Shown here: positions 4,117 to 58,597 of the stretch, piece by piece
Layout of the letters: each line of letters starts with the position of its first letter
How positions within the stretch are numbered: position 1 is the stretch's first letter
DNA from: Artemia franciscana
Lineage: Eukaryota; Arthropoda; Branchiopoda; Anostraca; Artemiidae
NCBI RefSeq assembly: GCF_032884065.1
Contig: NC_088868.1
Coordinates: 7,946,963 to 8,010,962, forward strand
Direction of reading: 5' to 3'
DNA length: 64,000 nt
Translations under genes and position numbers: made by a program
The notes under the pieces: model-generated
Databases searched by the model: none
What the model saw: the letters and a program-made list of their open reading frames with translations, nothing else
Told to the model about the DNA's origin: nothing

Positions 4117-4845
4117 GAATATGTGAAACCTCTATGAGCAAAAAATAGTAGTGGTGTTCAAACACTGACGTCATCTAGCATCTGGCAATTTTTCAGACCT
4201 TAGACTTAGCCTACTAAATTTTTCCTATCTAACCTAGGCCTACTTTGGATACATTGAATTTTGGCTTCAAATTATTCTTGAAATAAAAAGGCCTGATATT
4301 AATCAGGATGCAAAAGAATAAAACAATTTTAGGCTTTTATTTTTTCTACTTAGTCTAATATTTCAATGCTGACACATGATTTTAGAGTATTTAGTTTATT
4401 TAATTGTAGTGAAAACTCGTATGATATTTTTGCACTTGGGACACAGGACTGGCGAATGCACCAAAAGCTATATTTTTAAAAATCCCAAATATAAATTTAA
4501 GTAATTCTTGTTTCTCTGTCTACTACCAACATTTGAGTCTAACTGCATCTTTTACTAACTTATTCAACATGAATTATATTACCTAGTCAATGTGAAGAAC
4601 ATGAATAAACAACAAACAAAAATGAACTATCTGCCCAGAAATGAGATATAATGTCTTTGGAACAGAATAAATACAAAATTTGTTTTTCTGGGAAAGTTGG
4701 GGAGCATCTGTATACAGATTGTCGAAAAGGTGTATATTATTAAAAATTGGTGAAAAATTTTGTCAAACATCTGAATAGTAAGCCAAAATCATGGATCCTA
4801 ACAGAGAAAATAAAAAAAAAAATTAATTTTTTTTTTCTTAACCAA
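4117..4845. other. Unassigned AT-rich spacer
   Basis: I see no gene or clear repeat unit here. The stretch contains only short AT-rich frames, homopolymer A/T runs near 4810-4840 and nothing matching the neighbouring repeat families. Confidence 0.5.
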
Positions 4846-17040: not shown

Positions 17041-18500
17041 AAGATTCGATCACCCGTTCGTAAGTTAAAAATACCTCAATAGCGATTGCAATTTCTTTCC
17101 GTCTGTCGGTCTGTCTGTCCGTCGGTTCCGGTTTCGCTAGTTCGGGCCCTTCCAGATAAGCCTCGTCACAAGTGCCATATGAGCTCTTGGCTCTTGGCGA
17201 TTTCTGTCCGTCTGTCGGTGTGTCTGCCTGTTGGTCCCGGTTTTGCTAGTTCGGGCACATCCAGACAAGCCTCGTCACAAGTGCCATATCAGCTCTTGGT
17301 TCTTGGAGATCACAATTTCTTTATGTCTGTCGGTCCCAGTTTTGCTATTTCGGGCGCTTGACTCTGTCAGAGCATTATAGCGATCTCAGAATAACGATTG
17401 CGATTTTTGTCTGTTTGTCAGTCCCGGTTCTGCCAGTTCGGGCATTTCCAGATAAGCTAGGACGATGAAAGCTGGTAGGTGCATCAGGGTCTAGACCAAA
17501 TTAAATTAGAGATAGTCCCTTCCCCTCTTCAACTACATGGGGGGGCGTGGAGTACAAGGACAATTAATTCGAAAAAATGAGGTATTTTTAACTTACGAAC
17601 GGAGAATCGAATCTTAACGCAATAGCAATCGCGATTTTTGTCTGTCTGTCGGTCTGTGAGCCTATCGGTCCCGGTTTTACTAGTTTGTGCACTTGGCTCT
17701 GTCTTGGCATAATAGTTACCTCAAAATAACGATCGCAATTTATGTCTGTCTGTCGGTCCCGGTTTTGCTAGTTTGGGCACTTCCGGATAAGATAGGACGA
17801 TTTAAGTTGGCAGGTGTATCAGAGAATTAGAAAGAATCATTTTCCCGATTCGACCTTCTGGGGTGGGGGTGAGTGGAAGGACGATTAATTCGAAACAATT
17901 AGAAAAAATGAGGTATTTTCAGCTTATGATAGGGTGGTTGATTCTTAATGAAATTTGATATTAAAAAGAGCTCGTGTCTCAGAGCTCTTACTTTAGATCC
18001 TGACCAGATCCGGTGACAGAGGGGGGAGTTGGACTAGGAAGCCAAAAATTTTGGAAAATGATTAGAGTGGAGTGATCGAGATGACACTTGGAAAAAAATA
18101 AGCACATAGATACAAGTCCTGGATACGTGATCGACATAACCAGACTGGGTCTGCTCTCTTTGGGGGAGGGGCATTTCCAGTGCTTTGGCTTATTCGTTGC
18201 TTCTGGACGTGCTAGAACGATGAAAACTGGTAGGTGCTTCGGGGACCTGCACAAATTGACTTGATAACAGTCATTTCCCCAATTCAATTTTTTTGGGAGG
18301 GGGGCTGGAGGAAGGGGAAATTCAAAATGACGTATGTTTATACATCATTACATACACCCTCACGAATGGGTGATCGAATCTTACTAAAACTTGATGTGTA
18401 GAAAGATGTCACGCCTCAGATGCTTGATTTTCAATTCGGAGCGGATCCGGGGACATTGGGGGTGGAGTGGGAAACAGAAATCTTGAAAACTGGAGTACTG
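17041..18500 (-). repeat. 'Q' repeat, reverse copies after a palindromic hinge
   Basis: At about 17000-17150 the repeat turns round: ACAGACCGACAGACTGACAG on the left faces CTGTCGGTCTGTCTGTCCGT on the right. From there the phrases run in reverse (GATAAGCTAGGACGATGAAA, then TTAACTTACGAACGG, ATAACAGTCATTTCCCC). Several shortened, rearranged copies of the CTGTCTGTCGGTCCCGGTTT end recur at 17100, 17210, 17320, 17410, 17640 and 17740. Confidence 0.8.
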
Positions 18501-19376
18501 AGTCTAATTTTAGGTTCCAACCTCGTCACAAGTGCCATATTAGCTTTTGGCTCTTCCGACCTCGTCACAAATGCCATATGAATCGATCCCTGTCGGAGAC
18601 AGCGATTGCAATTTCTGTCTGTCTGTCTATCGGTCCCAGTTTGCTAGTTCAAGCACTTCCAGATAAGCAAGGACGTTGAAAGCTGACAGGTGTATCAGGG
18701 ACCAAACTTAATTAAATTAGAAATAGTCAATTCCTCGATTCGACCATATGGGTAGGGGGGATGGAAGGACAATTAATTCGGAAAAATTAGAAGAATGTGG
18801 TTTTTTTAACTTACGAACGGGTGATCGAGTTTTGATGAAATTTGATATGTAAAAGGAGCTCGCATTTTAAATCCCGACCAGATCTGGCCTTATTGGGGGG
18901 AATTACAGGGGAAACCGGAAATTTGGAAAACACTTAGAGTGGAGAGATCAGGATTAAACTTGATGGGAAGAATAAGCACAAGTCCTATATACGTGATTGG
19001 CATAACCAGGCCGGTTCTGCTCTCTTTGGGGGAGATGGGGGGGAGATTTCCAGTGCTTTGGCGAGTTCGGGGCTTCTGGACGTGCCAAGACAATGAAAAT
19101 TTTTAGGCGTTTCGGGGACCTGTATACACTGACTTGATAACAGCCGTTTCCCTGATTTGACCTTCTGGGGGAGAGGGGCTGGAGGGAGAAGATATGGAGA
19201 AAAATGAGGTGTGTTATCATCACGAATGGGTGATTGGATCTTAATGAAACCTGATATATAGAAAGATGTCATGTCTCAAATGGTCTATGTTCAATTCGGG
19301 CCGGATCTGGGGACATTTGGGATGGAGGGGGAAACAGAAATCTTGGAAACCGGGGTAGTGAGTCTAATTTTATGTT
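18501..19376 (-). repeat. 'Q' repeat, reverse copy 2
   Basis: Reverse-oriented copy running from CCTCGTCACAAGTGCCATAT (near 18520) through AGCACTTCCAGATAAGCAAG, TTACGAACGGGTGATCGAG, GAGTGGAGAGATCAGGATTA and TGGACGTGCCAAGACAATGA to ACGAATGGGTGATTGGATC (near 19222). Frames at 18890-19272 on the minus strand are repeat-derived. Confidence 0.8.
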
Positions 19377-19460
19377 CCGATCTCTTCACAAGTGCCATAT
19401 GAGCTCTTGTGCTCTTTGTTCAAAAGCCAAAAGCTCATATGGCACTTGTGACGAGATCTG
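19377..19460. repeat. Palindrome at the Q-cluster hinge
   Basis: CACAAGTGCCATATGAGCTC on the left arm (from 19387) faces AAAGCTCATATGGCACTTGT on the right arm (to about 19448) around a short CTCTTTGTTC loop. It marks the second point where the orientation of the Q repeat switches. Confidence 0.85.
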
Positions 19461-21430
19461 GAGCCAAGAGCTTTCAGCCTCCAGATGGTCGAATCGGGAA
19501 AACGACTATTATCAAGACAATTTGTGCAGTTCCCCGACATGCCAAACAATTTTTATCGTCTTAGCACGTCAAAAAGCACCGAACTTGCCAAAGCACTGGA
19601 ATCCCCCCAAACTCAGAGCGGATCCGGTTATATCAATCACGTATCTAGAACTTGCACTTATTCTCGAACTTTCCAAAGCACAAGAAATCCCTCAACTCCC
19701 CCAAAGAGATCGGATCTGGTCCGATTATTCAATAACGTATCTAGGACTTGTGCTTATTATTCCCATTAAGTTTCATCCCGGTCTCACCACTCTAAGTGTT
19801 TTACAAGATTTTCGTTTTCAAAGATTTCTGTTTCTCCCCTCCATCCCCTATGTTCCCAGATCTGATCCGAACTCAAAAGGGAGCATCTGTGACATGCCAT
19901 CTTTCTATGTATCAAGTTTTATTAAGATCTGATCACCCATTCGTGAGATAAATATAATTCATTTTTCACGATCTCCCCTCCCTACCTTAGAGGGTTGAAT
20001 CGGGGAAACGACTGTTATCAAGTCAATGTTTGCAGGTCTCTGAAACGCCTACCAATTTTCGTCGTTCTAGCACATCCAGAAGCACCAAACTCGCCAAAGC
20101 ACTGAACCCCCCAGCCCTCCTAAGAGGATATCTGGTGCAGTCTTGACAATCACGTATCTAGGACTTCTTATTCTTCCACCAAGTTTCTTCCTGATCTCTC
20201 CGCTCTAAGCGTTTCCTAACATTTCCGGGTTTACCCCTCCAACTTCCCCAATGTCACCAGATCCGGTCGAGATTTAAAATAAGTGCTCTGAGACACGAGG
20301 TCGTTCTAAATGTTTAATTTCAATAAGATTCGATCATCCATTCGTAAGTTAAAAATACCTCATTGTCTCTAATTTTTATTAATTAATCGTCCTTCCACCC
20401 CCCCTCCAGATAGTCAAATTGAGGAAGCGACTATTTTTAATTCAATCTATTCTGGTCCCTGATACACCTGCCAACTTTCATCGTCCTAACTTATCAGAAA
20501 CTAAACAAATACTGCGTTGTGTACCAGGTTAAATACAATGAGCATTTCCTTCTTTTTCTGACAAAGCATAATTATAAAAACGTAGTTCAGGTTGACTGCA
20601 CTAGAATTTAACGTTTAAATCAGAATGTGACACTTGTGACGAGGTCGGAAGAGCCAAGAGCCAAGAACTCATATGACACTTGCGACGAGACCGGAACCTA
20701 AAATTAGACTCAGTAATCCGGTCTCCAGGATTTCAGTTTCCCCCCTCCGTCCCCGGATCCGAATTGAACATAGATTATTTAAGACATGACATCTTTCTAT
20801 ATATAAAGTTTCATTAAGATCCGATCACCCATTCGTAAGATAAACATGCCTCATTTTTCAAGAATTACCCTCCCTCCAGCCCCCCCAGATGGTCAAATCG
20901 GGGAAACGACTGTTATCAAGTCAATTTGTGCTGGTCCCCGACACACCTACCAATTTTCATCGTCTCAAACCTTCCAGAAGCACCAAACTCGCCAAATTAC
21001 AGGAAATCCCCCCCCCCAACTCCCCCAAAGAGAGTGGATCCAGTCCAGTTATGTGAATCATGTATCTAGGACTTATGCTTCTTTTTACCACCAAGTATTA
21101 TACCGATCTATCTACTATAGGTGTTTTTCAAGATTTCCGGTTTCCCTCTCCAGCTCCAATGTCACCGGGTAAGGTCGAGATATAAAATAAGAGCTTTGAG
21201 ACACGAGGTCCTTCTAAATATCAAATTTCATTTAGAATCGATCACCCAGTCGTAAGTTAAAAATACCTCATTTTTTCTAATTTTTCCGAATTAATCGTCC
21301 TTCGACTCCTCCCCCCCCCCCTCATATGTTCGAATCGGGGAAGCGACTATTTCTAATTTAATCTAGTCTGGTCCCTGATACACCTGCCAACTTTCATCGT
21401 CTTTGCTTGTCAGGAAGTGCTCCAACTAGC
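19461..21430 (+). repeat. 'Q' repeat, forward copies 2 and 3
   Basis: Two forward copies (about 19470-20510 and 20640-21430) carry the full order of phrases, including CACCCATTCGTGAGATAAAT, GGGGAAACGACTGTTATCAA, CACGTATCTAGGACTTGTGC, CTTTCATCGTCCTAACTTAT and the CTAGCAAAACCGG end. Between them lies a short unrelated stretch (20510-20630). Frames at 19372-19932, 19485-19769 and 20846-21172 are by-products. Confidence 0.8.
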
Positions 21431-21448
21431 AAAACCGGCGATCACAAT

Positions 21449-22667: not shown

Positions 22668-37117
<14,450 letters not shown>

Positions 37118-39745: not shown

Positions 39746-40519
39746 TCTCCTCAGTAGCTCGCTCTTACGTTAAAGTTTCTTTTGAGCTTTTAAAAAAGGT
39801 TATGACTTATTTCGGTTTATAAAGATTCTGTGGGAATAATTAAATTATATTTATTGTATTCTAAGATCCAACGAACAGGAAGCATATTATGTTTTTGCTT
39901 CCAATTTGCTGTGTAATAGACTAGAAAGATATTTTATGAGAGTGAGGGAATCCTGTTCAGGCCGTAGAGCCTTTATGGGCATCACTGAATTATGTTTCTT
40001 TGATGATATTGTTTGACAAAGTTTATGAACTTCAGAAGAAAATTTGTGTCGTTTCACTTTGTGTCCCAACAGTTCTTAATTCCAAAAGGAAGCCAGCCTT
40101 TTGAAGTCTTCTATTTTAAAAGCTGCCAGAAAACAAAAATTCTATATTAAAAATCTCCCTTTTTTAATCATTTATTGATTTCTTGTTCTATCTTTCTTAG
40201 CTAGTGTTTGACTAGTGTTCGTATTCTCCCTCCTTTTCAGGCGGTAGAGCCTCTATGGGCATCACTCTAAAATGTTGTTTTTATGATATTTTCTTTTTTA
40301 AATATTGAAATACATTTCACATTATAAAAATGTATTTTACATGATTGAAAAATGTAAGAGGGTATTAGAAAAACTTGTAAACTTCAGAGAAGACATTTTC
40401 TTTTTGTCGCTACCAAACTAAAGACCACTGATAACGACGAACGAGGTTTTTCCCGTAAAAAATAAAAACAAACAAACCTGTCAGCAGCTGTCTTGTTGTC
40501 TTCATCCCAAGACTCTTAA
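39746..40519. other. Unassigned spacer with a direct repeat
   Basis: The phrase CGTAGAGCCTTTATGGGCAT followed by CACT (39961) recurs as CGGTAGAGCCTCTATGGGC and CATCACT (40242). About 100 bp around each share ATGATATT and AACTTCAGA(G)AGA. This is an old direct repeat, ~280 bp apart. No gene is visible. Confidence 0.45.
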
Positions 40520-41105
40520 TAAGAATGAATTTCATTGGTTGGCTTCGGGTTGCCTTTTTATTTCCTTTTATTTTCATTTTTCCACGAATAAACTTTGCAT
40601 CCACAACTATGCCTCTCCTGGCTGCCTGGGACTTCAGCACCCAAGTGGAGAGGTCAATGGTGACTTTTTCTTGGGAGCTGTGAGACACTTTACGGAGATC
40701 ACCAAGCTAGAAGCAGAGACTCCGACCCTTCTGCTATTGGACAACCATGACAGCCATCTCGATCTATTGGAGATAGAATGCAAGGAAAAGTTTGCGACAT
40801 TTTTGACATTTTCACCTCACTGTTCGCATAACTGCAATCACTAGACGTATGTTTTCTGTCTCCTTTCAAGAACGCACTAAAAGGGCTTTTCAACGAGTGG
40901 CTACAGTTGCATCCCGTTCAGCCTATTCCGATTTACGAAGTAGCTCCACTCAGCAGGGTTCCCTTCCAAGAGAAATGTATTGCATCGAACATTATATCTG
41001 CGTTCCCAGCCACTGGGATCTTACCTTTCAATCGTGACATATTTCCGAAGGGAGCTTTCACACCATCCAGATTCACCCCGCATCCGAACCAATCCCATTT
41101 TCCAC
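40520..41105 (+). pseudogene. Pogo-like DDE transposase, C-terminal half
   Basis: In order: FIFIFPRINFA (a degraded 'FPR-NF' strand, another frame), HNYASPGCLGLQHPSGEVNG (40600), FFLGAVRHFTEITK, TPTLLLLDNHDSHLDLL (40720-40770, second catalytic Asp), FATFLTFSPHCSH (to about 40828), then after a single frameshift LQSLDVCFLSPFKNALKGLF (third catalytic acidic residue in LDV) and NEWLQLHPVQPIPIYEVAPL, ending NIISAFPATGILPFNRDIFP and KGAFTPS (to 41075). This is the DDE_1 domain of pogo/jerky-type transposases. The DNA-binding N-terminal half is missing. Its signature (LLLDNHDSHL) differs from the Tigger at 23340, so it is a separate lineage. Confidence 0.85.
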
Positions 41106-42300
41106 TTCACAAGCATATATAAAGTAGTCAACCAAAAAAGTATCTGAGGCCTCAGAATGACCTTTGCCCTCATTTAATTTTGTCAATGGTCCAACTTGTG
41201 GCGAATAACACCTTCTTTAAAAATGTCCCATCGGTCTGTTGACAGCGTTATTCTTTTTGACCTTATTCTCATTCTGTAACATTGAAAATATAATTTTAAC
41301 ATCAGAGTAATGAACAATATAGTTTTGTTAAATCAGAAAGTCACAAAGAACATTAACAATGGGGAACAAATTGATTTTTATGATTTATCTAAGGGAAATG
41401 TTCTTCACTATATAAAAATATATTTAGGGCATAATCAGCCATCAACCGAGCTACTATATAAAAGTACATATGGAGTAGACCACCAAAAAAATCATTTGAG
41501 CATTTAAAATATTCTTTCCTCTAGGATAACTTTGTTTGTGCCTCAGCTTATGGCAAGTGACAGCTCATTTGAAGCGTCTCATCTTCCTAATGACAGCACT
41601 ACATTTTCGACGTAAATAAGAACATTGCTCTCATTCTGTGACCTTGAAAGATGTTTTTAAACTCAGAGCGATGAAAAAAAAGGTTTTGTTAAATACGAAA
41701 GGCACAGAGACCTTTAACAATGAGGAATAAATTGAATTGTATGATAAATCTAAGGAGAAATGTTCTTCGCCAAATAAAAACGCTATACAGGGATTAATAA
41801 GCTTAAGCAGGGCCAAAACCTGGGTTGCTATATTCAATTTGCCAGAAAAACTTTATTTGGAAACTAAATTGAATCCAAAACTTTTAAATGTGTTAAAACG
41901 AATATACCCTGAATCAGAGAAAAAATAAATTTCGAATGAGCTATTACACAAACATATATGAACTAGCCCCCCCAAAAAGTATCTGAGGCCTTAGAATACC
42001 CTTGCCCTGGGTTAATTTTGTTCCTGGTCTTACTCGTGGTGAGTGACACCTTCTTTAAAATGTATCATCGGTCTGTTGACAGCGCTACCCTTTTTGATAA
42101 GGATAGCAGCATTGTTCTCATTCTGTGACATTGAAAGTAGAATTTTATTAACAGGGCGATGGAAAAATGGTTTGTTAAATAATATAGTCACAAAGAACTA
42201 TAACAATGGTGAAAAATTGAATTTTAGGAAAAATCTAAGAAGAAAAATTCTTCACTAAATAAAAACGATATGAAGGGTATAATTTACCAAACCAGGACCA
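41106..42300 (+). repeat. Three diverged tandem units of ~360-490 bp
   Basis: Anchors recur three times: the phrase TCTGAGGCCTCAGAATGACC at 41144, ATCATTTGAGCATTTAAAAT at 41491 and TCTGAGGCCTTAGAATACCC at 41982; 'CTGTTGACAGCG' at 41236, 'AATGACAGCACTAC' at 41588 and 42072; TCTCATTCTGTGACCTTGAA-like at 41268, 41626 and 42117. Spacing is ~358 then ~488 bp. The second and third units are also carried in the 6.1-kb duplicated segments. Confidence 0.8.
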
Positions 42301-45039
42301 TCCTCCCTTCAGTTAATTTAAATTTGACACATTTATTTAAAAGAAATTGTCAAAGAGAAAAAAAGGGCGTCAAAAAAACTTGGGGAAGGGCTCACTGTCA
42401 ACCCAGCACCCTTTCTGTAGCCACCCCTGGTATCTTTTTTTACAGTCTTTATATCCTATTTGCAACATATTTTTTGCTAATTTTAGCAATATCAATAGAA
42501 AGTTTTTTTTTATTCTATGCTGTCTTATAAAATATTTCTTAAATTTAATTTTATTAATAAAAAATTTGGTGTGAGAAACTATTCGGAATCAATCATTCTT
42601 TAATTTTGTCATGGCTATACACCCTACCTGCATGTTTATTTAAAAAACAAAGACGTTGCCAAGATTATATTTGAAAATTAAATACTAAATGAGCATTTCT
42701 ATTATTTAATATATTTTTTATGGATCTTTAGGTTAGTATAAGACAGAATACGTCATCACTGTAATTAATTTTATAGATTGGGCGATCGACGAAGGGCGTT
42801 TCCTACATAATTTGTCAACACTGTGCGCTGGGCAATAGCCAGGGTGACGGGTGATCGGCTATTTCTTCAGACTAGTGTCCATGGATTCCACGGATAAATG
42901 TTATGGTCCACACGAACAGTACGTTCGTAAGTAAGTACGTTCCAATCTATTTTTTCTGATCAGCTTGTTTTTTTTATGTTTATTGACTCAACTCTGTGAA
43001 TTCGGCCCATGTTATGATACTTCTTTTCCAGAAAGGAATCTAAGCTAACACAGAAGTTTCTCCTAGGGAAGGAGGGTTTTTAAAAAGAACAAACTATACC
43101 TTAACGAACTATACGTTAAATATGGAGGTAATTGTAGAAAGCTCTAATATCCTTTTATAAAAGGGAGTCCTGACTGAAAGGTTCTTTTCCCTGAATATGA
43201 ATATTTTTGTATATATTGACTACTATACGTTAAACATGTTTAATACGTTATGTTAAATACGTTAATTAATAAATACGTTAAACAAACTATACGTCAGATA
43301 TGGAGGTAATTGTAGAAAGCTCTAATAGCCTTTTATAAATGGGAGTCCTGACAGAAAGGTTCTTCTCCCTGAATATGAACCTTTTTGAATATTTTGACTA
43401 CTATAGGTTAAATATGTTTAATACGTTAAACAAACTATACGTTAGATATGGAGGTAATTGTAGAAAGCTCTAATATCCTTTTATTAAAGGGAGTCGTGAC
43501 TGGAATGTATTTCTCCCTGAATATGAACCTTTTTGAAGATATTGACAACTATACGTTAAATATGTTCAATACATTATGTTAAATACGGTTAATTAATAAA
43601 TACGTTAAACGAACTATACGTTAGATATGGAGGTAATTGTAAAAAGCTCTAATATCCTTTTATAAAAGGGAGTCCTGACTGAAAGGTTCTTCTCCCTGAA
43701 TATGAACCTTTTTGAATATATTGACTACTATACGTTAAATATGTTTAATACGTTATGCTAAATACGTTGATTATTAAATACGTTAAACAAACTATACGTT
43801 AGATATGGAGGTAATAGTAGAAAGCTCTAATATCCTTTTATAAAAGGGAGTCCTTAAGGGGGTCGTCCCTTTTTATAAAAGGGAGTCGTTAATTAATAAA
43901 TACGTTAAACGAACTATACGTTAGATAGGGAGGTAATTGTATAAAGCTCTAATATCCTTTTATAAAAGGGAGTCCTTAAGGGGGTCGTCCCTTTTTATAA
44001 AAGGGAGTCGTTAATTAATAAATACGTTAAACGAACTATACATTAGATATGGAGGTAATTGTATAAAGCTCTAATATCCTTTTATAAAAGGGAGTCCTTA
44101 AGGGGTCGTCCCTTTTTATAAAAGGGAGTCGTTAATTAATAAATACGTTAAACGAACATATACGTTAGATATGGAGGTAATTGTAAAAAGCTCTAATATC
44201 CTTTTATAAAAGGGAGTCCTGACTGAAAGGTTCTTCTCCCTGAATATGAACCTTTTTGAATATATTGACTACTATACGTTAAATATGTTTAATACGTTAT
44301 ATCAGATACGTTATGCTAAATACGTTGATTATTAAATACGTTAAACAAACTATACGTTAGATATGGAGGTAATTGTAGAAAGCTCTAATATCCTTTTATA
44401 AAAGGGAGTCCTTAAGGGGGTCGTCCCTTTTTATAAAAGGGAGTCGTTAATTAATAAATACGTTAAACGAACTATACGTTAAATATGGAGGTACTTGAAA
44501 AAAAGCTCTAATATCCTTTTATAAAAGGGAGTCCTGACTGAAAGGTTCTTCCCCCTGAATATGAACCTTTTTGAATATATTGACTACTATACGTTAAATA
44601 TGTTTAATACGTTATATCAGATACGTTATGCTAAATACGTTGATTATTAAATACGTTAAACAAACTATACGTTAGATATGGAGGTAATTGTAGAAAGCTC
44701 TAACATCCTTTTATAAAAGGGAGTCCTTAAGGGGGTCGTCCCTTTTTATAAAAGGGAGTCGTTAATTAATAAATACGTTAAACGAACTATACATTAGATA
44801 TGGAGGTAATTGTATAAAGCTCTAATATCCTTTTATAAAAGGGAGTCCTTAAGGGGGTCGTCCCTTTTTATAAAAGGGAGTCGTTAATTAATAAATACGT
44901 TAAACGAACTATACGTTAGATAGGGAGGTAATTGTAAAAAGCTCTAATATCCTTTTATAAAAGGGAGTCCTGACTGAAAGGTTCTTCTCCCTGAATATGA
45001 ACCTTTTTGAATATATTGACTACTATACGTTAAATATGT
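41563..45039 (+). repeat. Higher-order repeat copy 0 (3.5 kb, lacks 1.26 kb)
   Basis: First of three tandem copies of a large segment. It has the unique part (41563-42917), then joins directly to GTAAGTACGTTCCAATC (42930), and then a satellite array (43095-45039). Relative to copies A and B it lacks about 1.26 kb, which in them holds a LINE fragment. The unique part is almost identical to 45051-46400 and 51152-52499. Confidence 0.92.
43095..45039 (+). repeat. Satellite array 0, ~13 units of 122-192 bp
   Basis: The unit phrase is GTTAGATATGGAGGTAATTG, TAGAAAGCTCTAATATCC, TTTTATAAAAGGGAGTCC, then either (long form) GACTGAAAGGTTCTTCTCCC, TGAATATGAACCTTTTTGAA, TATTGACTACTATACGTTAA and a run of TACGTTA sub-repeats, or (short form) TTAAGGGGGTCGTCCC and TTTTTATAAAAGGGAGTCG. 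From the GCTC anchor, spacings are 178, 148, 179, 178, 122, 122, 122, 192, 123, 192, 122 and 122 bp. Each unit has one AGCT (AluI) site. No coding content. Confidence 0.95.
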
Positions 45040-45169
45040 TGAAGCGTCATTTGAAGCGTCTCATCTTCCTAATGACAGCACTACATTTTCGACATAAATA
45101 AGAACATTGCTCTCATTCTGTGACCTTGAAAGATGTTTTTAAACTCAGGGCGATGAAAAAAAAAAGGTT

Positions 45170-45412
45170 TTGTTAAATAGGAAAGGCACAGAGACCTTTA
45201 ACAATAAGGAACAAATTGAATTGTATGATAAATCTAAGGAGAAATGTTCTTCACCAAATAAAAACGCTATACAGGGCTTAATAAGCTTAAGCAGGGCCAA
45301 AACCTGGTTTGCTATATTCAATTTGCCAGAAAAACTTTATTTGGGAACTAAATTGAATCCAAAACTTTTAAATGTGTTAAAACGAATATACCCTGAATCA
45401 GAGAAAAAATAA
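45170..45412 (+). other. Conserved small frame (80 aa), probably not a gene
   Basis: The frame with EQIELYDKSKEKCSSPNKNA and ends NVLKRIYPESEKK is open here and at 51221-51511 (96 aa), but in copy 0 (41737-41928) it is interrupted, because CAA of the second codon group is TAA there. Between the copies the changes are at a few sites, some altering amino acids. No domain is recognisable. The frame is inherited with the duplication and I see no sign of selection. Confidence 0.25.
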
Positions 45413-46504
45413 ATTTCGAATGAGCTATTACACAAACATATATGAACTAGTCCCCCCAAATAGTATCTGAGGCCTTAGAATACCCTTGCCCTGGGTTAAT
45501 TTTGTTCCTGGTCTTACTCGTGGTGAGTGACACCTTCTTTAAAATGTATCATCGGTCTGTTGACAGCGCTACCCTTTTTGATAAGGATAGCAGCATTGTT
45601 CTCATTCTGTGACATTGAAAGTAGAATTTTATTAACAGGGCGATGGAAAAATGGTTTGTTAAATAATATAATCACAAAGAACTATAACAATGGTGAAAAA
45701 TTGAATTTTAGGAAAAATCTAAGAATGAATATTCTTCACTAAATAAAAACGATATGCAGGGTATAATTTACCAAACCAGGACCATCCTCCCTTCAGTTAA
45801 TTTAAATTTGACACATTTATTTAAAAGAAATTGTCAAAGAGAAAAAAAGGGCGTCAAAAAAACTTGGGTAAGGGCCCACTGTCAACCCAGCACCCTTTCT
45901 GTAGCCACCCCTGGTATCTTTTTTTGCCGTCTTTATATCCGATTTGCAACATATTTTTTGCTAATTTTAGCAATTCAATAGAAAGTTTTTTTTATTCTAT
46001 GCTGTCTTATAAAATATTTCTTAAATTAAATTTTATTAATAAAAAATTTGGGTGTGAGAAACTATTCGGAATCAATCATTCTTTAATTTTGTCATGGCTA
46101 TACACCCTACCTACATGTTTATTTAAAAAACAAAGACGTTGCCAAGATTATATTTGAAAATTAAATACTAAATGAGCATTTCTATTATTTAATATATTTT
46201 TTATGGATCTTTAGGTTAGTATAAGACAAAATACATCATCACTGTAATTAATTTTATAGATTGGGCGATCGACGAAGGGCGTTTCCTACATAATTTGTCA
46301 ACACTGTGCGCTGGGCAATAGCCAGGGTGACGGGTGATCGGCTATTTTTTCAGACTAGTGTCCATGGATTCCACGGATAGATGTTATGGTCCACACAAAC
46401 ACCGTCGGTCTTCTCCAAGTGGTCCTGTCCTTGGTCCAGTTGGTCCACACATGGCTTCATCCTTAACAGAACTTCAGCGGGAGGAGATTTTTCCATAGTT
46501 ATCG

Positions 46505-46690
46505 GAGCGCCCATGCTTCAAAGCCATACTTGCCTATTGTCTTTAATACAATTTCCAATATTCTAATCTGGGTTTACAGACTTATTCTCTTATTCTTCTA
46601 AGTTTTTTTTTTCAAAAAACACCATGGGCCTTTGTTATTATATTTTAAACATCTTCACTGTACCCACGACTCTACTAATATCACGGAAAT
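46505..46690 (-). mobile_element. RTE LINE fragment inside copy A
   Basis: The plus strand matches 13660-13860 of the RTE LINE: GAGCGCCCATGCTTCAAAGC for AGAGCGCCCATGCTTTAGAG, CCAATATTCTAATCTGGGTT for CCAAAATTCTAATCCTGGTT, then CTTTACTAATA-like and the ACACCATGGGCCTTTGTT counterpart of ACACTCTGAGTCTCATCC. It therefore lies in minus orientation. It is present in copies A and B and absent from copy 0. Confidence 0.75.
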
Positions 46691-47690
46691 GAGGAAAAAG
46701 TATACTAATAACACGAAAATGAGGAAAAGATCTTGTTTGAAAAGATCTTTTAATTACAAAAGGTCCGTTAATTACAAATCAGTTACTATTACCCAATTTT
46801 ACGGGCAGGCCGAGTAAGACAAACCCAGCGCGCCGACTGAATCCATCTGTGAAACAGAATTCTTTCATGTAGTAAATGGCTCAGTCGTACCAATTTAAAA
46901 TCAGGTCCCAAAAAGGTAATTACAGACCCCTTAGTACACCAGAAAACATATTCGTCCATAAAGAACACACTATTTAATCAACATTTTTATAAATCTATTT
47001 TTATTTTTAAGTAAAAATTTAAAATTTTCAACAGTTGGGAAGTTTGAAGCATTTCCACCATTTGAAGAAAAAAAAATAAGTCCCTTTTCACGATACGGCT
47101 AGTGATCATTTCAGTGACAGTGACACTACAAAAAAAACACAGACCTTTTAAAAATAAAAATTGCTTATATTTTTCTAGCTCAAATTGTACGGAATGAACG
47201 AACTTTCTTTTCTGATATGAAAAAAAAAGTTTGTTACCTTGAAGAAATTTTGAGTTTTTAGCCTGTCTTTGAGATATTTGACGAATTTTATAGCACTTAT
47301 TTTGAAACTGTAGTAAATAGAGAAAAAAACCGTGTTTCTTTCAATTTAAAAATCATATTCTTGTAGATCTATATCTCTCCTTTCGATTGATATAACAATA
47401 CCCCGGATTCCTCAACCCGATAACTCGAAAAAAAATATCCTGAATCGTCACACTTAGTTATAGGCTAACCAAGTTGGCATTTTTGGTCTGTATCTCAGAA
47501 ACGCCCCGACGGCGAACATGCGCCCTGCGATATTCGTATTCAGCATGGTTGGCTACCCTAGGATCCATCCTCAGCACTTTCGTACCTTCCGCCATGGGTG
47601 GGTGCACGATACAGAATTTGGCGCCCTGGCTATTACTATGTTAAAAATATCATGGCCAAGAGGCTAGGCCGAGTAAGTACGTTCCAATCT
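46691..47690. other. Unique 1-kb part of the duplicated segment
   Basis: AT-rich with a GC-rich end (47500-47640, GCATGGTTGGCTACCCTAGG and CGCCATGGGTGGGTGCACG). The 11-bp GGCCGAGTAAG occurs at both ends (46809 and 47668), and AATAGCCAGGG (near 46316) has an inverted partner CCCTGGCTATT (near 47626). No gene is recognised. Confidence 0.5.
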
Positions 47691-47834
47691 ATTTTTTCTG
47701 ATTAGCTTGTTTTTTTTATGTTTATTGACTCAAAACTGTGAATTCGGCCCATATTATGATACTTCTTTTCCAGAAAGGAATCTAAGCTAACACAGAAGTT
47801 TCTCCTAGGGAAGGAGGGTTTTTAAAAAGAACAA

Positions 47835-50800
47835 ACTATACCTTAACGAACTATACGTTAAATATGGAGGTAATTGTAGAAAGCTCTAATATCCTTTTAT
47901 AAAAGGGAGTCCTGACTGAAAGGTTCTTTTCCCTGAATATGAATATTTTTGTATATATTGACTACTATACGTTAAACATGTTTAATACGTTATGTTAAAT
48001 ACGTTAAACAAACTATACGTCAGATATGGAGGTAATTGTAGAAAGCTCTAATATCCTTTTATAAATGGGAGTCCTGACTGAAAGGTTCTTCTCCCTGAAT
48101 ATGAACCTTTTTGAATATTTTGACTACTATAGGTTAAATATGTTTAATACGTTATGTTAAATACGTTAAACAAACTATACGTTAGATATGGAGGTAATTG
48201 TAGAAAGCTCTAATATCCTTTTATAAAAGGGAGTCCTGACTGAAAGGTTCTTCTCCCTGAATATGAACCTTTTTGAATATATTGACAACTATACGTTAAA
48301 TATGTTCAATACGTTATGTTAAATACGGTTAATTAATAAATACGTTAAACAAACTATACGTTAGATATGGAGGTAATTGTAGAAAGCTCTAATATCCTTT
48401 TATAAATGGGAGTCCTGACTGAAAGGTTCTTCTCCCTGAATATGAACCTTTTTGAATATTTTGACTACTATAGGTTAAATATGTTTAATACGTTATGTTA
48501 AATACGTTAAACAAACTATACGTTAGATATGGAGGTAATTGTAGAAAGCTCTAATATCCTTTTATAAAAGGGAGTCGTGACTGGAATGTTTATCTCCCTG
48601 AATATGAACCTTTTTGAATATATTGACTACTATACGTTAAATATGTTTAATATGTTATGTTAAATACGTCAAACAAACTATACGTTAGATATGGAGGTAA
48701 TTGTAGAAAGCTCTAATATTCTTTTATAAAAAGGAGTTCTGACTGAAAGGTTCTTCTCCCTGAATATGAACCTTTTTGAATATATTGACTACTATACGTT
48801 AAATATGTTTAATAAATCATGTTAGATACGTTAATTAATAAATACGTTAAACGAACATATACGTTAGATATGGAGGTAATTGTAAAAAGCTCTAATATCC
48901 TTTTATAAAAGGGAGTCCTGACTGAAAGGTTCTTCTCCCTGAATATGAACCTTTTTGAATATATTGAGTACTATACGTTAAATATGTTTAATACGTTATA
49001 TCAGATACGTTATGCTAAATACGTTAATTATTAAATACGTTAAACAAACTATACGTTAGATATGGAGGTAATTGTAGAAAGCTCTAGCATCCTTCTATAA
49101 AAGGGAGTCCTTAAGGGGTCGTCCCTTTTTATAAAAGGGAGTCGTTAATTAATAAATACGTTAAACGAACTATACGTTAGATAGGGAGGTAATTGTAAAA
49201 AGCTCTAATATCCTTTTATAAAAGGGAGTCCTGACTGAAAGGTTCTTCTCCCTGAATATGAACCTTTTTGAATATATTGACTACTATACGTTAAATATGT
49301 TTAATACGTTATGTTAAATACGTTGATTAATGATCACGTTAAACAGACTATACGTTAAATATGGAGGTAATTGTAGAAAGCTCTAATATCCTTTTATAAA
49401 AGGGAGACATGACTGAAAGGATCTTCTCCCTGAATAAGATCCTTTTTGAATATATTGTCTACTATACGTTAAATATGTTTAATACGTTATGTTAAATATG
49501 TTACGTTAAATACGTTAAACAAACTATACGTTAGATATGGAGGTAATTGTAGAAAGCTCTAATATCCTTTAATAAAAGGGAGTCCTGAGTGAAAGGTTCT
49601 TCTCCCTGAACATGAACCTTTTTGAATATATTGACTACTATATGTTAAATATACGTTAATTATGTTTAATACGTTATGTTAGATACGGTAATAAATAAAT
49701 ACGCTAAACAAACTATACGTTAGATATGGAGGTTATAGTAAAAAGCTCTAATATCCTTTTATAAAAGGGAGTCCTGACTGAAAGGTTCTTCTCCCTGAAT
49801 ATGAACCTTTTTGAATATATTGACTACTATGCGTTAAATATATTTAATACGTTATGTTAAATACGTGAATTAATAAATACGTTAAAAAAACTAAACGTTA
49901 AATATGGAGGTAATTGTAGAGAGCTCTAATATCCTTTTATAAAAGGGAGTCCTGAGTGAAAGGTTCTTTTCCCTGAATATGAATCTTTTTGAATATATCG
50001 ACTACTATACGTTAAATATGTTTAATGCGTTATGTTAGATACGTTAATTAATAAATACGTTAAACAAACTATACGTTAGAAATGGAGGTAATTGTAAAAA
50101 GCTCTAATATCCTTTTATAAAAGGGAGTCCTGACTGAAAGGTTCTTCTCCCTGAATATGAACCTTTTTGAATATATTGACTACTATGCGTTAAATATTCG
50201 TTAAATATATTTAATACGTTATGTTAAATACGTGAATTAATAAATACGTTAAAAAAACTAAACGTTAAATATGGAGGTAATTGTAGAGAGCTCTAATATC
50301 CTTTTATAAAAGGGAGTCCTGAGTGAAAGGTTCTTTTCCCTGAATATGAACCTTTTTGAATATATCGACTACTGTACGTTAAATATGTTTAATGCGTTAA
50401 GTTAGATACGTTACATTAAATACGTTAATTAATAAATACGGATAAACAAACTATAAGTTAGATATGGAGGTAATTGTAAAAAGCTCTATTATTATTTTAT
50501 AAAAGGGAGTCCTTAAGGGGGTCGTCCCTTTTTATAAAAGGGAGTCGTTAATTAATAAATACGTTAAACGAACTATACGTTAAATATGGAGGTACTTGAA
50601 AAAAAGCTCTAATATCCTTTTATAAAAGGGAGTCCTGACTGAAAGGTTCTTCTCCCTGAATATGAACCTTTTTGAATATATTGACTACTATACGTTAAAT
50701 ATGTTTAATACGTTATATCAGATACGTTATGCTAAATACGTTGATTATTAAATACGTTAAACAAACTATACGTTAGATATGGAGGTAATTGTAGAAAGCT

Positions 50801-51139
50801 CTAATATCCTTTTATAAAAGGGAGTCCTTAAGGGGTCGTCCCTTTTTATAAAAGGGAGTCGTTAATTAATAAATACGTTAAACGAACATATACGTTAGAT
50901 ATGGAGGTAATTGTATAAAGCTCTAATATCCTTTTATAAAAGGGAGTCCTTAAGGGGGTCGTCCCTTTTTATAAAAGGGAGTCGTTAATTAATAAATACG
51001 TTAAACGAACTATACGTTAGATAGGGAGGTAATTGTAGAAAGCTCTAATATCCTTTTATAAGAGGGAGTCCTGACTGAAAGGTTCTTTTCCCTGAATATG
51101 AATATTTTTGTATATATTGACTACTATACGTTAAATATG
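47835..51139 (+). repeat. Satellite array A (3.3 kb)
   Basis: Same unit as array 0, mostly long-form units in the left half and a return of short-form units (TTAAGGGGGTCGTCCC) after about 50490. One unit near 49420 carries a paired change in its hairpin (GGATC...GATCC instead of GGTTC...GAACC). Variant units recur in the same order in array B, so the array was copied as a block. Confidence 0.95.
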
Positions 51140-52603
51140 TTGAAGCGTCATTTGAAGCGTCTCATCTTCCTAATGACAGCACTACATTTTCGACGTAAAT
51201 AAGAACATTGCTCTCATTCTGTGACCTTGAAAGATGTTTTTAAACTCAGGGCGATGAAAAAAAAGGTTTTGTTAAATAGGAAAGGCACAGAGACCTTTAA
51301 CAATGAGGAACAAATTGAATTGTATGATAAATCTAAGGAGAAATGTTCTTCACCAAATAAAAACGCTATACAGGGCTTAATAAGCTTAAGCAGGGCCAAA
51401 ACCTGGCTTGCTATATTCAATTTGCCAGAAAAACTTTATTTGGGAACTAAATTGAATCCAAAACTTTTAAATGTGTTAAAACGAATATACCCTGAATCAG
51501 AGAAAAAATAAATTTCGAATGAGCTATTACACAAACATATATGAACTAGCCCCCCCAAAAAGTATCTGAGGCCTTAGAATACCCTTGCCCTGGGTTAATT
51601 TTGTTCCTGGTCTTACTCGTGGTGAGTGACACCTTCTTTAAAATGTATCATCGGTCTGTTGACAGCGCTACCCTTTTTGATAAGGATAGCAGCATTGTTC
51701 TCATTCTGTGACATTGAAAGTAGAATTTTATTAACAGGGCGATGGAAAAATGGTTTGTTAAATAATATAATCACAAAGAACTATAACAATGGTGAAAAAT
51801 TGAATTTTAGGAAAAATCTAAGAATGAATATTCTTCACTAAATAAAAACGATATGCAGGGTATAATTTACCAAACCAGGACCATCCTCCCTTCAGTTAAT
51901 TTAAATTTGACACATTTATTTAAAAGAAATTGTCAAAGAGAAAAAAAGGGCGTCAAAAAAACTTGGGGAAGGGCTCACTGTCAACCCAGCACCCTTTCTG
52001 TAGTCACCCCTGGTATCTTTTTTTGCAGTCTTTATATCCGATTTGCAACATATTTTTTGCTAATTTTAGCAATTCAATAGAAAGTTTTTTTTATTCTATG
52101 CTGTCTTATAAAATATTTCTTAAATTTAATTTAATTAATAAAAAATTTGGGTGTGAGAAACTATTCGGAATCAATCATTTTTTAATTTTGTCATGGGTAT
52201 ACACCCTACCTGCATGCTTATTTAAAAAACAAAGACGTTGCCAAGATTATATTTGAAAATTAAATACTAAATGAGCATTTCTATTATTTAATATATTTTT
52301 TATGGATCTTTAGGTTAGTATAAGACAAAATACATCATCACTGTAATTAATTTTATAGATTGGGCGATCGACGAAGGGCGTTTCCTACATAATTTGTCAA
52401 CACTGTGCGCTGGGCAATAGCCAGGGTGACGGGTGATCGGCTATTTCTTCAGACTAGTGTCCATGGATTCCACGGATAAATGTTATGGTCCACACGAACA
52501 CCGTCGGTCTTCTCCAAGTGGTCCTGTCCTGGGTCTAGTTGGTCCACACATGGCTTCATCCTTAACAGAACTTCAGCGGGAGGAGATTTTTCCATAGTTA
52601 TCG

Positions 52604-52789
52604 GAGCGCCCATGCTTCAAAGCCATACTTGCCTATTGTCTTTAATACAATTTCCAATATTCTAATCTGGGTTTACAGACTTATTCTCTTATTCTTCTAA
52701 GTTTTTTTTTCAAAAAACACCATGGGCCTTTGTTATTATATTTTAAACATCTTCACTGTACCCACGACTCTACTAATATCACGGAAATG
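52604..52789 (-). mobile_element. RTE LINE fragment inside copy B
   Basis: Duplicate of 46505-46690, differing at only a few bases. It is carried by the segmental duplication and not by a separate insertion. Confidence 0.7.
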
Positions 52790-53934
52790 AGGAAAAAGTA
52801 TACTAATAACACGAAAATGAGGAAAAGATCTTGTTTGAAAAGATCTTTTAATTACAAAAGGTCCGTTAATTACAAATCAGTTACTATTACCCAATTTTAC
52901 GGGCAGGCCGAGTAAGACAAACCCAGCGCGCCGACTGAATCCATCTGTGAAACAGAATTCTTTCATGTAGTAAATGGCTCAGTCGTACCAATTTAAAATC
53001 AGGTCCCAAAAAGGTAATTACAGACCCCTTAGTACACCAGAAAACATATTCGTCCATAAAGAACACACTATTTAATCAACATTTTTATAAATCTATTTTT
53101 ATTTTTAAGTAAAAATTTAAAATTTTCAACAGTTGGGAAGTTTGAAGCATTTCCACCATTTGAAGAAAAAAAAACTAAGTCCCTTTTCACGATACGGCTA
53201 GTGATCATTTCAGTGACAGTGACACTACAAAAAAAACACAGACCTTTTAAAAATAAAAATTGCTTATATTTTTCTAGCTCAAATTGTACGGAATAGAACG
53301 AACTTTCTTTTCTGATATGAAAAAAAAAGTTTGTTACCTTGAAGAAATTTTGAGTTTTTAGCCTATCTTTGAGATATTTGACGAATTTTATAACACTTAT
53401 TTTGAAACTGTAGTAAATAGAGAAAAAAACCGTGTTTCTTTCAATTTAAAAATCATATTCTTGTAGATATATATCTCTCCTTTCGATTGATATAACAATA
53501 CCCCGGATTCCTCAACCCGATAACTCGAAAAAAAATATCCTGAATCGTCACACTTAGTTATAGGCTAACCAAGTTGGCATTTTTGGTCTGTATCTCAGAA
53601 ACGCCCCGACGGCGAACATGCGCCCTGCGATATTCGTATTCAGCATGGTTGGCTACCCTAGGATCCATCCTCAGCACTTTCGTACCTTCCGCCATGGGTG
53701 GGTGCACGATACAGAATTTGGCGCCCTGGCTATTACTATGTTAAAAATATCATGGCCAAGAGGCTAGGCCGAGTAAGTACGTTCCAATCTATTTTTTCTG
53801 ATTAGCTTGTTTTTTTTATGTTTATTGACTCAAAACTGTGAATTCGGCCCATATTATGATACTTCTTTTCCAGAAAGGAATCTAAGCTAACACAGAAGTT
53901 TCTCCTAGGGAAGGAGGGTTTTTAAAAAGAACAA

Positions 53935-56695
53935 ACTATACCTTAACGAACTATACGTTAAATATGGAGGTAATTGTAGAAAGCTCTAATATCCTTTTAT
54001 AAAAGGGAGTCCTGACTGAAAGGTTCTTTTCCCTGAATATGAATATTTTTGTATATATTGACAACTATACGTTAAACATGTTTAATACGTTATGTTAAAT
54101 ACGTTAATTAATAAATACGTTAAACAAACTATACGTCAGATATGGAGGTAATTGTAGAAAGCTCTAATATCCTTTTATAAATGGGAGTCCTGACTGAAAG
54201 GTTCTTCTCCCTGAATATGAACCTTTTTGAATATTTTGACTACTATAGGTTAAATATGTTTAATACGTTATGTTAAATACGTTAAACAAACTATACATTA
54301 GATATGGAGGTAATTGTAGAAAGCTCTAATATCCTTTTATAAAAGGGAGTCGTGACTGGAATGTTTATCTCCCTGAATATGAACCTTTTTGAATATATTG
54401 ACAACTATACGTTAAATATGTTCAATACGTTATGTTAAATACGGTTAATTAATAAATACGTTAAACAAACTATACGTTAGATAAGGAGGTAATTGTAGAA
54501 AGCTCTAATATCCTTTTATAAATGGGAGTCCTGACTGAAAGGTTCTTCTCCCTGAATATGAACCTTTTTGAATATTTTGACTACTATAGGTTAAATATGT
54601 TTAATATGTTATGTTAAATACGTCAAACAAACTATACGTTAGATATGGAGGTAATTGTAGAAAGCTCTAATATCCTTTTATAAAAGGGAGTCGTGACTGG
54701 AATGTTTATCTCCCTGAATATGAACCTTTTTGAATATATTGACAACTATACGTTAAATATGTTCAATACGTTATGTTAAATACGGTTAATTAATAAATAC
54801 GTTAAACAAACTATACGTTAGATAAGGAGGTAATTGTAGAAAGCTCTAATATTCTTTTATAAAAAGGAGTTCTGACTGAAAGGTTCTTCTCCCTGAATAT
54901 GAACCTTTTTGAATATGTTGACTACTATACGTTAAATATGTTTAATAAATCATGTTAGATACGTTAATTAATAAATACGTTAAACGAACTATACGTTAGA
55001 TATAGAGGTAATTGTAAAAAGCTCTAATATCCTTTTATAAAAGGGAGTCCTGACTGAAAGGTTCTTCTCCCTGAATATGAACCTTTTTAAATATATTGAG
55101 TACTATACGTTAAATATGTTTAATACGTTATATCAGATACGTTATGCTAAATACGTTAATTATTAAATACGTTAAACAAACTATACGTTAGATATGGAGG
55201 TAATTGTAGAAAGCTCTAGCATCCTTCTATAAAAGGGAGTCCTTAAGGGGTCGTCCCTTTTTATAAAAGGGAGTCGTTAATTAATAAATACGTTAAACGA
55301 ACATATACGTTAGATAGGGAGGTAATTGTAAAAAGCTCTAATATCCTTTTATAAAAGGGAGTCCTGACTGAAAGGTTCTTCTCCCTGAATATGAACCTTT
55401 TTGAATATATTGACTACTATACGTTAAATATGTTTAATACGTTATGTTAAATACGTTGATTAATGATCACGTTAAACAGACTATACGTTAAATATGGAGG
55501 TAATTGTAGAAAGCTCTAATATCCTTTTATAAAAGGGAGACATGACTGAAAGGATCTTCTCCCTGAATAAGATCCTTTTTGAATATATTGTCTACTATAC
55601 GTTAAATATGTTTAATACGTTATGTTAAATATGTTACGTTAAATACGTTAAACAAACTATACGTTAGATATGGAGGTAATTGTAGAAAGCTCTAATATCC
55701 TTTAATAAAAGGGAGTCCTGACTGAAAGGTTCTTCTCCCTGAACATGAACCTTTTTGAATATATTGACTACTATATGTTAAATATACGTTAATTATGTTT
55801 AATACGTTATGTTAGATACGGTAATAAATAAATACGCTAAACAAACTATACGTTAGATATGGAGGTTATTGTAAAAAGCTCTAATATCCTTTTATAAAAG
55901 GGAGTCCTGACTGAAAGGTTCTTCTCCCTGAATATGAACCTTTTTGAATATATTGACTACTATGCGTTAAATATATTTAATACGTTATGTTAAATACGTG
56001 AATTAATAAATACGTTAAAAAAACTAAACGTTAAATATGGAGGTAATTGTAGAGAGCTCTAATATCCTTTTATAAAAGGGAGTCCTGAGTGAAAGGTTCT
56101 TTTCCCTGAATATGAATCTTTTTGAATATATCGACTACTATACGTTAAATATGTTTAATGCGTTATGTTAGATACGTTAATTAATAAATACGTTAAACAA
56201 ACTATACGTTAGAAATGGAGGTAATTGTAAAAAGCTCTAATATCCTTTTGTAAAAGGGAGTCCTGACAGAAAGGTTCTTCTCCCTGAATATGAACCTTTT
56301 TGAATATATTGACTACTATGCGTTAAATATTCGTTAAATATATTTAATACGTTATGTTAAATACGTGAATTAATAAATACGTTAAAAAAACTAAACGTTA
56401 AATATGGAGGTAATTGTAGAGAGCTCTAATATCCTTTTATAAAAGGGAGTCCTGAGTGAAAGGTTCTTTTCCCTGAATATGAACCTTTTTGAATATATCG
56501 ACTACTGTACGTTAAATATGTTTAATGCGTTATGTTAGATACGTTACATTAAATACGTTAATTAATAAATACGGCTAAACAAACTATAAGTTAGATATGG
56601 AGGTAATTGTAAAAATCTCTATTATTATTTTATAAAAGGGAGTCCTGACTGCAAAGTTCTTCTTCCTGAATACATACCTATTTGAATATACTGTA
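53935..56695 (+). repeat. Satellite array B (2.76 kb)
   Basis: Same satellite, mostly long-form units with the variant order of array A (for example TCGTGACTGGAATG, then AAGGATCTTCTCCC near 55550, then the ATTCGTTAAATATAT unit). The right edge at about 56695 is the end of the whole repeated block. Confidence 0.95.
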
Positions 56696-57037
56696 TAGTT
56701 CAGAGTTTGGCAGTTTTTCTCACCAGGAGGATTTTTCCTATGAGCACTGAAGGTCTACTTTTCAGCAAAGCTCCTGTTGCTCTTTTTAAATGCGTGTGTT
56801 TTTTTTTATGAAGTTTTGTGCACATATTTTTGCTAACACCTATCTAAAATCTATTTATATAGTCAATATTCTATTTTTATCCATATATTTTATCGATCAG
56901 CGTGTTCCCATATGTCAACCATTACATCTCGGAATTGAAACGAAAAACGCAGGTGCTATACTCTAATAAATATAAAGGTCACGTCTGTGTATCTAAGGGT
57001 AAAAGTGTCAGTGTATCTTCAGGTGGGTAAGGCTTGT
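56696..57037. other. 3' flank of the zinc-finger gene
   Basis: Single-copy AT-rich sequence between the satellite and the stop codon. The 3' UTR of the zinc-finger transcript should lie here on the minus strand. I found no AATAAA on that strand within 150 nt of the stop. Confidence 0.4.
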
Positions 57038-57798
57038 CTAATATTTCACATTTTGGCCATGTATCTTCAAATGAACAGTCAAATTACAATTTTTGGCAAA
57101 TCTCCTCTGACATATTTTACATTCGTATGGCTTCTCCCTGGTATGAACCCTCCTATGATCCCTTAAATTCTGACTTTGGACGAAGCGTTTTTGACATAAC
57201 TCACACTGATATCGCTTTTCACCTGTATGAGATCTCATATGTCTATTCAAGCGGTGTCTTTCAGCGAATTTCTTTTTACACAATTCACACTCATGCGGCT
57301 TTTCACCTGTATGGATTTTCATGTGACTACTCAAATGTGGTCCTTGACTGAAGCACTTTTTACACTGTGGACATTCATATGGTTTGTCACCAGTATGGGT
57401 CCTTCTGTGTCTAGTTAAATTCTGTCTCCGAGCAAAGCTCATGCTGCAGTATTCACACTGATATGGTTTCTCACCTGTATGAATCCTTGAATGATCAATC
57501 AACGCCCGTTTATTGGAAAATGTTTTACTGCAAACATCGCAATCATAGATCTTTACTGCAGCTGAGGACAGCACTTTCTGCAATCGAACGACAGGATTCT
57601 CTATCTCTTCTTGTCTAGCATCATACATTCCAGAAATCGTTTCCACTTTGATGAAAGTGAAGCTTCTCATCTGACCTTCATCTTCTTCTATCCAAGGTTC
57701 ATGGGTTTCTGGTTCTGAAGCTGATTCTATTTCTTCCTTTACATATACCTTCGGATAGTCTGTCATATAAGGTGGCTTGGCTGATGACAGATTCAAAT
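57038..57798 (-). CDS. C2H2 zinc-finger protein, last exon, six fingers
   Basis: A DNA-binding, nuclear, putative transcription factor. The first ~80 residues are acidic, with two SUMO-consensus sites (VKEE at residues 19-22, IKVE at 49-52). Six classical C2H2 fingers follow at residues 84-106, 112-134, 140-162, 168-190, 196-218 and 224-246, in strict 28-residue register with TGEKPY-type linkers. Recognition-helix cores are NKRALID, RRQNLTR, QGPHLSS, ERHRLNR, QSQNLRD and KNCNLTV. All Cys and His ligands are present. The stop is TAG at 57038-57040. The open frame appears to start at a TTG, but an acceptor (TTGGTATAG) ends at 57799, so this is a 3' exon beginning at 57798 with AT completing a split codon. 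The N-terminus lies upstream. The family is too common to name an orthologue. Confidence 0.93.
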
Positions 57799-57861
57799 CT
57801 ATACCAAGAAAAATAATCTTAAAAATAGCAAAAGAATTACCACTGGGTTCTTATCTTAGTC

Positions 57862-57898
<37 letters not shown>

Positions 57899-58597
57899 AT
57901 GACTTTAAAATGTAGAAGCAACTGTTCCAGCAAATCTTAATAGATACTGATCAGGTTGTTGTTGGCAAAATAGTTTGCTTTTAAGGATTGCTGTAAGAAA
58001 TAACGTTTTATCTCCCTCCCTTTCCATAAGAAAAACAAAGACATGACAGAATACACACTGCATATAAGCATGATCAAGGTGCCTATATATAAACTATACA
58101 TGTGCACATATAGGATCCTGATAAACAAAAGAAGGTTCTTTAATGGCAAAATTTCGAGCCTTGTTCATCTAGACATAAAATATTTTTTAGTTTAAGAATA
58201 ATACTTATTTGAATATTTTTCAAAATTAAATTATCAAGTCCTTTTATTTTGGCCTCTTTTTAAGATCATTCTCAATTTCAACCGGAAGTTATGGAAAAGT
58301 AAACTACAATGTTGCAGTGGCGGACCTATTCTTTTCTTAGGAGGGGCAAATCTACATTTTGCCACCCCTACCATACTATTAATACTGTCAATATTACAGT
58401 TTCCGTTTAGAGTGATGGTTAGATATATGTCCTGGAAAAAGATGATATTTATTTATTATTTTTATGTTATATATTAAGTATGCTGGGTTTATCAACTCAC
58501 AGTTTAATTCCACTACTTTTTGAAGATGCATGGTATTGTCGATTTAAAAGGAACTTTACACTCTCTTACATAGCCTAAGGCATAAACTTAGCTAAAT
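57799..58597 (-). other. Zinc-finger gene intron, right part
   Basis: Contains a 26-base T run (57867-57892) and, near 58318, a CAGTGGCGGACC motif typical of transposon ends, followed by a stretch without coding content. Nothing else is recognised. Confidence 0.4.

Follow-up and report, generated by a model that had tools for sequence, protein, structure and literature searches.

We analysed a window of 64,000 nucleotides of Artemia franciscana DNA, which sits on a 40.6-Mb contig of an assembly comprising 1.27 Gb in 6,468 contigs. Self-BLAST, the sequence itself and pairwise alignment revealed in this window three copies of one unit, placed head-to-tail in direct orientation. The unit is composed of non-array sequence, divided here into a left (U1), a middle (U2) and a right part (U3), followed by an array of tandem monomers. 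The copies and their non-array parts are as follows, with the boundaries fixed from the sequence and drawn outside the filler bases.

41565..45040, plus strand: copy 1 (3.5 kb), consisting of U1, a deletion, U3 and array 1 (self-BLAST, sequence, pairwise alignment)
45047..51141, plus strand: copy 2 (6.1 kb), complete, with the chimeric array 2 (self-BLAST, sequence, pairwise alignment)
51148..56699, right edge approximate, plus strand: copy 3 (5.6 kb), whose array grades into the right flank (self-BLAST, alignment)
45047..46401 in copy 2, plus strand: U1, left non-array part, with counterparts at 41565-42918 in copy 1 and 51148-52500 in copy 3 (pairwise alignment)
46402..47671 in copy 2, plus strand: U2, middle part (1.27 kb), with a counterpart at 52501-53771 in copy 3 and none in copy 1 (alignment)
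47672..47836 in copy 2, plus strand: U3, short right non-array part, with counterparts at 42930-43094 in copy 1 and 53772-53936 in copy 3 (alignment)

An earlier note on this DNA had described non-array sequence and array as repeated together every 6.1 kb. Self-BLAST and alignment bear this out, the period from copy 2 to copy 3 being 6,101 bp (45047 to 51148) and spanning both components. The note had counted two copies, whereas three exist, of which the first is shortened: it lacks the equivalent of 46402-47671 (about 1.27 kb), and its array holds 13 monomers as compared with 20 and 16 in the other two. The copies are adjacent, direct, longer than 1 kb and at least 90% identical, and, within the window, the flanks fall outside the duplicated block, as expected of a tandem segmental duplication. 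Neither of the flanking segments, 40000-41564 and 56700-58500, occurs a second time in the window in near-identical form; all they show there is old low-identity similarity.

U1 is present three times, with pairwise identities of 97.9-98.7%. Copies 2 and 3 differ at 23 of 2787 non-array sites (0.83%), which break down into 18/1353 mismatches in U1 (1.33%), 5/1269 in U2 (0.39%) and 0/165 in U3. The claim that these parts differ by well under 1% thus holds for the non-array sequence overall and for U2, but not for U1. In the aligned stretch of arrays 2 and 3 (47837-50500 versus 53937-56633), we counted 25 mismatches in 2663 positions (0.94%) and four gap openings. In U1, copy 1 differs from copy 2 by 28 mismatches and from copy 3 by 21 (1352 sites each), and copies 2 and 3, with their 18, are the most alike pair in this part; in U3, copy 1 differs from copy 2, and likewise from copy 3, at 4/165 sites. 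Between copies 2 and 3, the mismatch rate of U1 differs from that of the rest (Fisher p = 0.005). Chance is an unlikely cause of this unevenness, and local exchange with copy 1 is a possible one.

The earlier note had seen in the locus a very young or ongoing amplification; on such a reading, the array-containing unit might even be copy-number polymorphic now. Three copies have already accumulated, and their long homologous arrays could still recombine. Nevertheless, the closest copies have diverged by about 0.8-0.9%, in the non-array sequence and the aligned array alike, and differ by several indels, which places their age at roughly 0.4-4.7 million years if rates between 1e-9 and 1e-8 per site per year are assumed; moreover, these three are the only near-identical copies found in the assembly among the matches listed. 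Ongoing amplification is accordingly a quite improbable reading.

The unit appears to be non-coding DNA, made of old repeat debris and an array private to the locus. The window contains 26 open frames of at least 110 amino acids, ten of which were tested against Pfam. Four lie in the unit; the two of these that were tested (45825-46157 and 46987-47340) had no Pfam match at E 0.001, and the other two (51924-52256 and 53068-53445) lie in the matching parts of copy 3. As neither an Rfam match at gathering score nor a tRNA-type gene (ARAGORN) turned up anywhere in the window, we rejected both a gene or RNA inside the unit, as far as Rfam, the tRNA search and Pfam for two frames of at least 110 amino acids can tell, and a repeat cluster of rDNA, tRNA or other RNA genes. 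No function of the duplication is indicated.

Several other features lie in the window. A few hundred bases to the right of the duplication, an open frame at 57038-57850 (minus strand) encodes several C2H2 zinc fingers (Pfam). The left neighbour of the unit, 40422-41119, contains broken open frames that by eye resemble, presumably, the end of a pogo/Tigger-type transposase; two pieces of it gave no Pfam match at E 1. Fragments of reverse transcriptase are found at 2926-4131 and 30740-31174 (both minus strand), the second scoring below Pfam's cut-off. According to self-BLAST, a sequence of about 0.8 kb also occurs at least three times within 16184-21436; its copies are 76-79% identical, and one of them is inverted.

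The word 'unique', which the earlier note had used for the non-array sequence, does not quite fit, given the many distant relatives of the left part. Of 63 matches to U1 and the sequence directly to its left, three are the window's own copies and 60 are relatives at 64-84%, located in many places of the genome; all 12 loci fetched from this match list show the family. By this similarity, U1 is a fragment of an old dispersed repeat family. In two of these loci, tandem repeat finding detected sub-repeats, of 502 bp in L021 (3349-5178) and of 491 bp in L022 (3944-5172), indicating that the family itself is inclined to tandem arrangement, and the same pattern occurs in the window as an old self-similarity of 72-80%. 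U2 includes two further pieces of dispersed sequence.

46499-46680: dispersed-repeat fragment; scoring of 40 among 1190 candidates listed 38 other places, 78-80% like it
46747-47637: piece of another element; scoring of 40 among 1696 candidates listed 37 other places, 84-88% like it

Because the element piece is only 84-88% like its scored relatives, and hence far more diverged from them than the copies are among themselves, copy 1 has probably lost U2, rather than copies 2 and 3 having gained it. That U2 entered copies 2 and 3 later than the first duplication is unlikely, both on this likeness and on the observation that, in the five relatives compared, similarity extends past the end of the window's copy.

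The remainder of each copy is its array, in which the monomers are 121-193 bp long, end pieces excepted. Some monomers are of a 122-bp variant that contains an inverted repeat (hairpin-type).

43095..45040, plus strand: array 1, 13 monomers, 6 of them hairpin-type (monomer annotation)
47837..51141, plus strand: array 2, 20 monomers, 4 of them hairpin-type, chimeric (monomer annotation, comparison)
53937..56699, plus strand: array 3, 16 monomers, 1 of them hairpin-type, the final monomer degenerate (monomer annotation)
50495..50513, plus strand: putative crossover interval in monomer 16 of array 2, 19 bp common to both parents

Two array queries against the 1.27-Gb assembly, in a search that ignores simple repeats and very common words, returned matches at this locus only (31/31 and 15/15). 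The term 'satellite' in the earlier note was therefore too strong: genome-wide satellite DNA, which occupies many loci or reaches a very high copy number, does not describe an array whose matches are all local. A centromeric satellite higher-order repeat was likewise rejected, as the locus has three units separated by non-array sequence.

Comparison of the arrays monomer by monomer showed that array 2 is a chimera, like array 3 up to monomer 16 and like the end of array 1 for monomers 16-20. When monomers 1-15 of array 2 were compared with monomers 1-15 of array 3, the best match was in register for 13/15 (one tie counted in and one counted out), and none of 20000 permutations of monomer order reached the observed score, in agreement with the claim that the variants keep their order between these arrays. 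The additional 3′ block of array 2 has its match in the end of array 1 and not in array 3; here, monomers 16-20 correspond in register to monomers 9-13 of array 1 in 4/5 cases. The same switch appeared in 150-bp windows along array 2: array 3 was closer in 17 of the 18 starting at 47838-50388, and array 1 in all four starting at 50538-50988, the final window of 3 bp carrying no information. Within monomer 16, array 3-specific bases extend to 50494 and array 1-specific ones begin at 50514. A switch inside shared sequence, with parental order on either side, is what the product of an unequal crossover looks like. The notion that the array was copied as a block therefore stands as regards the order of the monomers, but not for the array 1-like 3′ block of array 2 or for the two of 15 monomers that were locally exchanged.

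A few monomers depart from this scheme. Besides these two on the array 3 side, one of five, monomer 2.18, is out of register on the array 1 side, being nearer another array 1 monomer than its register partner. Monomer 2.20 has six mismatches to 1.13 and is partly nearer monomer 1.1, so that later local exchange has to be invoked for 2.18 and 2.20. The end block of array 2 differs from the array 1 end at 9/630 positions, a rate not below that of the rest.

The junctions between the parts contain short fillers.

45041..45046, and again at 51142, plus strand: filler at the array-to-next-copy junction, 6 bp (sequence)
42919..42929, plus strand: filler at the deletion point of copy 1, 11 bp (sequence, alignment)

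Both at 45041 and at 51142, the array breaks off within a monomer; GAAGCGTC comes next, and then the start of U1. The filler is the 8 bp GAAGCGTC, to 45048, if two ambiguous bases that possibly belong to U1 are included, and hence measures 6-8 bp. The identity of the two junctions indicates a single non-homologous event that was copied afterwards. The same 8 letters occur again 4 bp downstream of the junction filler, a recurrence like that in templated end-joining fillers. The monomer in which array 1 breaks off has 2.9 and 3.9 as its best matches in arrays 2 and 3, without a mismatch; this broken monomer, like 2.9 and 3.9, comes after a hairpin-type monomer. Array 3 runs into the right flank via its degenerate last monomer, and for this reason we take its edge to be the original right edge.

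These features also bear on the possibility that two haplotypes, or a collapsed repeat, were chained by the assembler into false tandem copies. Heterozygosity in outbred invertebrates spans the range of about 0.8-1.3% by which the copies diverge, and to that extent the divergence is compatible with such an artefact. An artefact of this kind is nonetheless very unlikely, given that the same non-homologous filler junction is seen twice and that the flanks are unrepeated in the window beyond old low-identity similarity. It would also have to accommodate copies that differ by the 1.27-kb deletion and in array length, and a chimera that switches within just 19 identical bases, far fewer than the overlaps used by assemblers.

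Taken together, these results point, with good though not complete confidence, to a probably neutral local segmental duplication that arose in two main steps, end joining and then unequal crossover, with a deletion in copy 1 in addition. In the first step, as the junction with its filler suggests, error-prone end joining would have connected a break inside monomer 9 of the array with the beginning of the unit, leaving the templated filler of 6-8 bp and two tandem copies (U-array1-U-array3). In the second, two chromatids would have misaligned, so that array 3 of one lay with its right end against the hairpin-type monomers in array 1 of the other, and a crossover within the 19 identical bases would have yielded three copies, with array 2 as the recombinant. 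A single crossover of this kind in a two-copy ancestor, involving array 1 and the end of array 3, suffices to give the observed arrangement; the chimera is seen directly, and unequal crossover is the mechanism that we infer from it. Copy 1 would also have lost about 1.27 kb through a separate end-joining event, and some monomers would have been altered by local exchange.

Not every observation sits easily with this two-step history: the out-of-register monomers, the 9/630 mismatches in the end block of array 2 and the uneven divergence of copies 2 and 3 all count against it. So does the kinship of the copies, which we assessed at 33 differing sites with the dispersed relatives as outgroup. Two sites group copies 2 and 3, two group copies 1 and 3, and none groups copies 1 and 2; seven are single-copy changes, three fit no copy and 19 are uninformative. 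The sites thus give no preference to a sister relationship of copies 2 and 3 (2 versus 2). That copies 2 and 3 are left unseparated from copy 1 would suit a single complex event of replication template switching that produced all three copies together, with which the short junction fillers are also compatible. We regard such an event as unlikely, since array 2 is the simple, expected product of an unequal crossover and since, as weaker evidence, copy 1 is further from copies 2 and 3 in U1 than these are from each other.

As to what might have driven the rearrangements in the two-step history, we considered the 122-bp variant with its inverted repeat. The putative crossover links an ordinary monomer to this variant, inside the variant's repeat arm, and the variant numbers six, four and one in arrays 1, 2 and 3. 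Folded as single-stranded DNA, it scores better than all 200 shuffles (z = -3.1), but a 141-bp piece of the ordinary monomer likewise folds better than its shuffles (z = -3.5), and foldability alone therefore fails to set the variant apart. It is doubtful that the variant was the engine of rearrangement; were it so, a new hairpin within a monomer might make a quiet array a hot spot of recombination, amplifying both itself and the sequence on either side.

The duplication is a genuine and ordinary structural variation of a known type, with a legible history. The locus can be read as a fossil of tandem duplication growth, in which an end-joining scar, a crossover chimera and a deletion are all visible. 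It leaves the known picture of such growth unchanged, and is of use as a worked example and as a warning not to take any high-identity tandem repeat for ongoing amplification.

Among known systems, locus-specific minisatellite arrays share with this array head-to-tail monomers at one locus and variant monomer types; here, in contrast, the array was carried along inside a larger duplication, and classical minisatellite monomers are shorter than the 121-193 bp seen here. Centromeric higher-order repeats also retain the order of monomer variants between larger units, whereas the present units are only three, each with non-array sequence, and lie outside any large satellite array. For the founding junction, a C. 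elegans study (PMC8654963) describes, in helq-1 mutants, tandem duplications that range in length from about 100 bp to 10 kb, and insertions templated from beside the break, ties both to polymerase-theta end joining and reports such duplications as rare in wild-type worms. The likeness lies in the tandem duplications and in fillers templated next to the break; in the Artemia locus the footprint alone is visible, as distinct from the helq-1 case as described there, and polymerase-theta may, by analogy, have been the enzyme. In overall form, the locus parallels tandem segmental duplication through non-allelic homologous recombination: direct copies of kilobase size lie side by side, the founding junction is non-homologous, and the repeat at the recombination site is chimeric. 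Nothing essential distinguishes the present locus from tandem segmental duplication by unequal crossing over, the substrate here being the internal tandem array.
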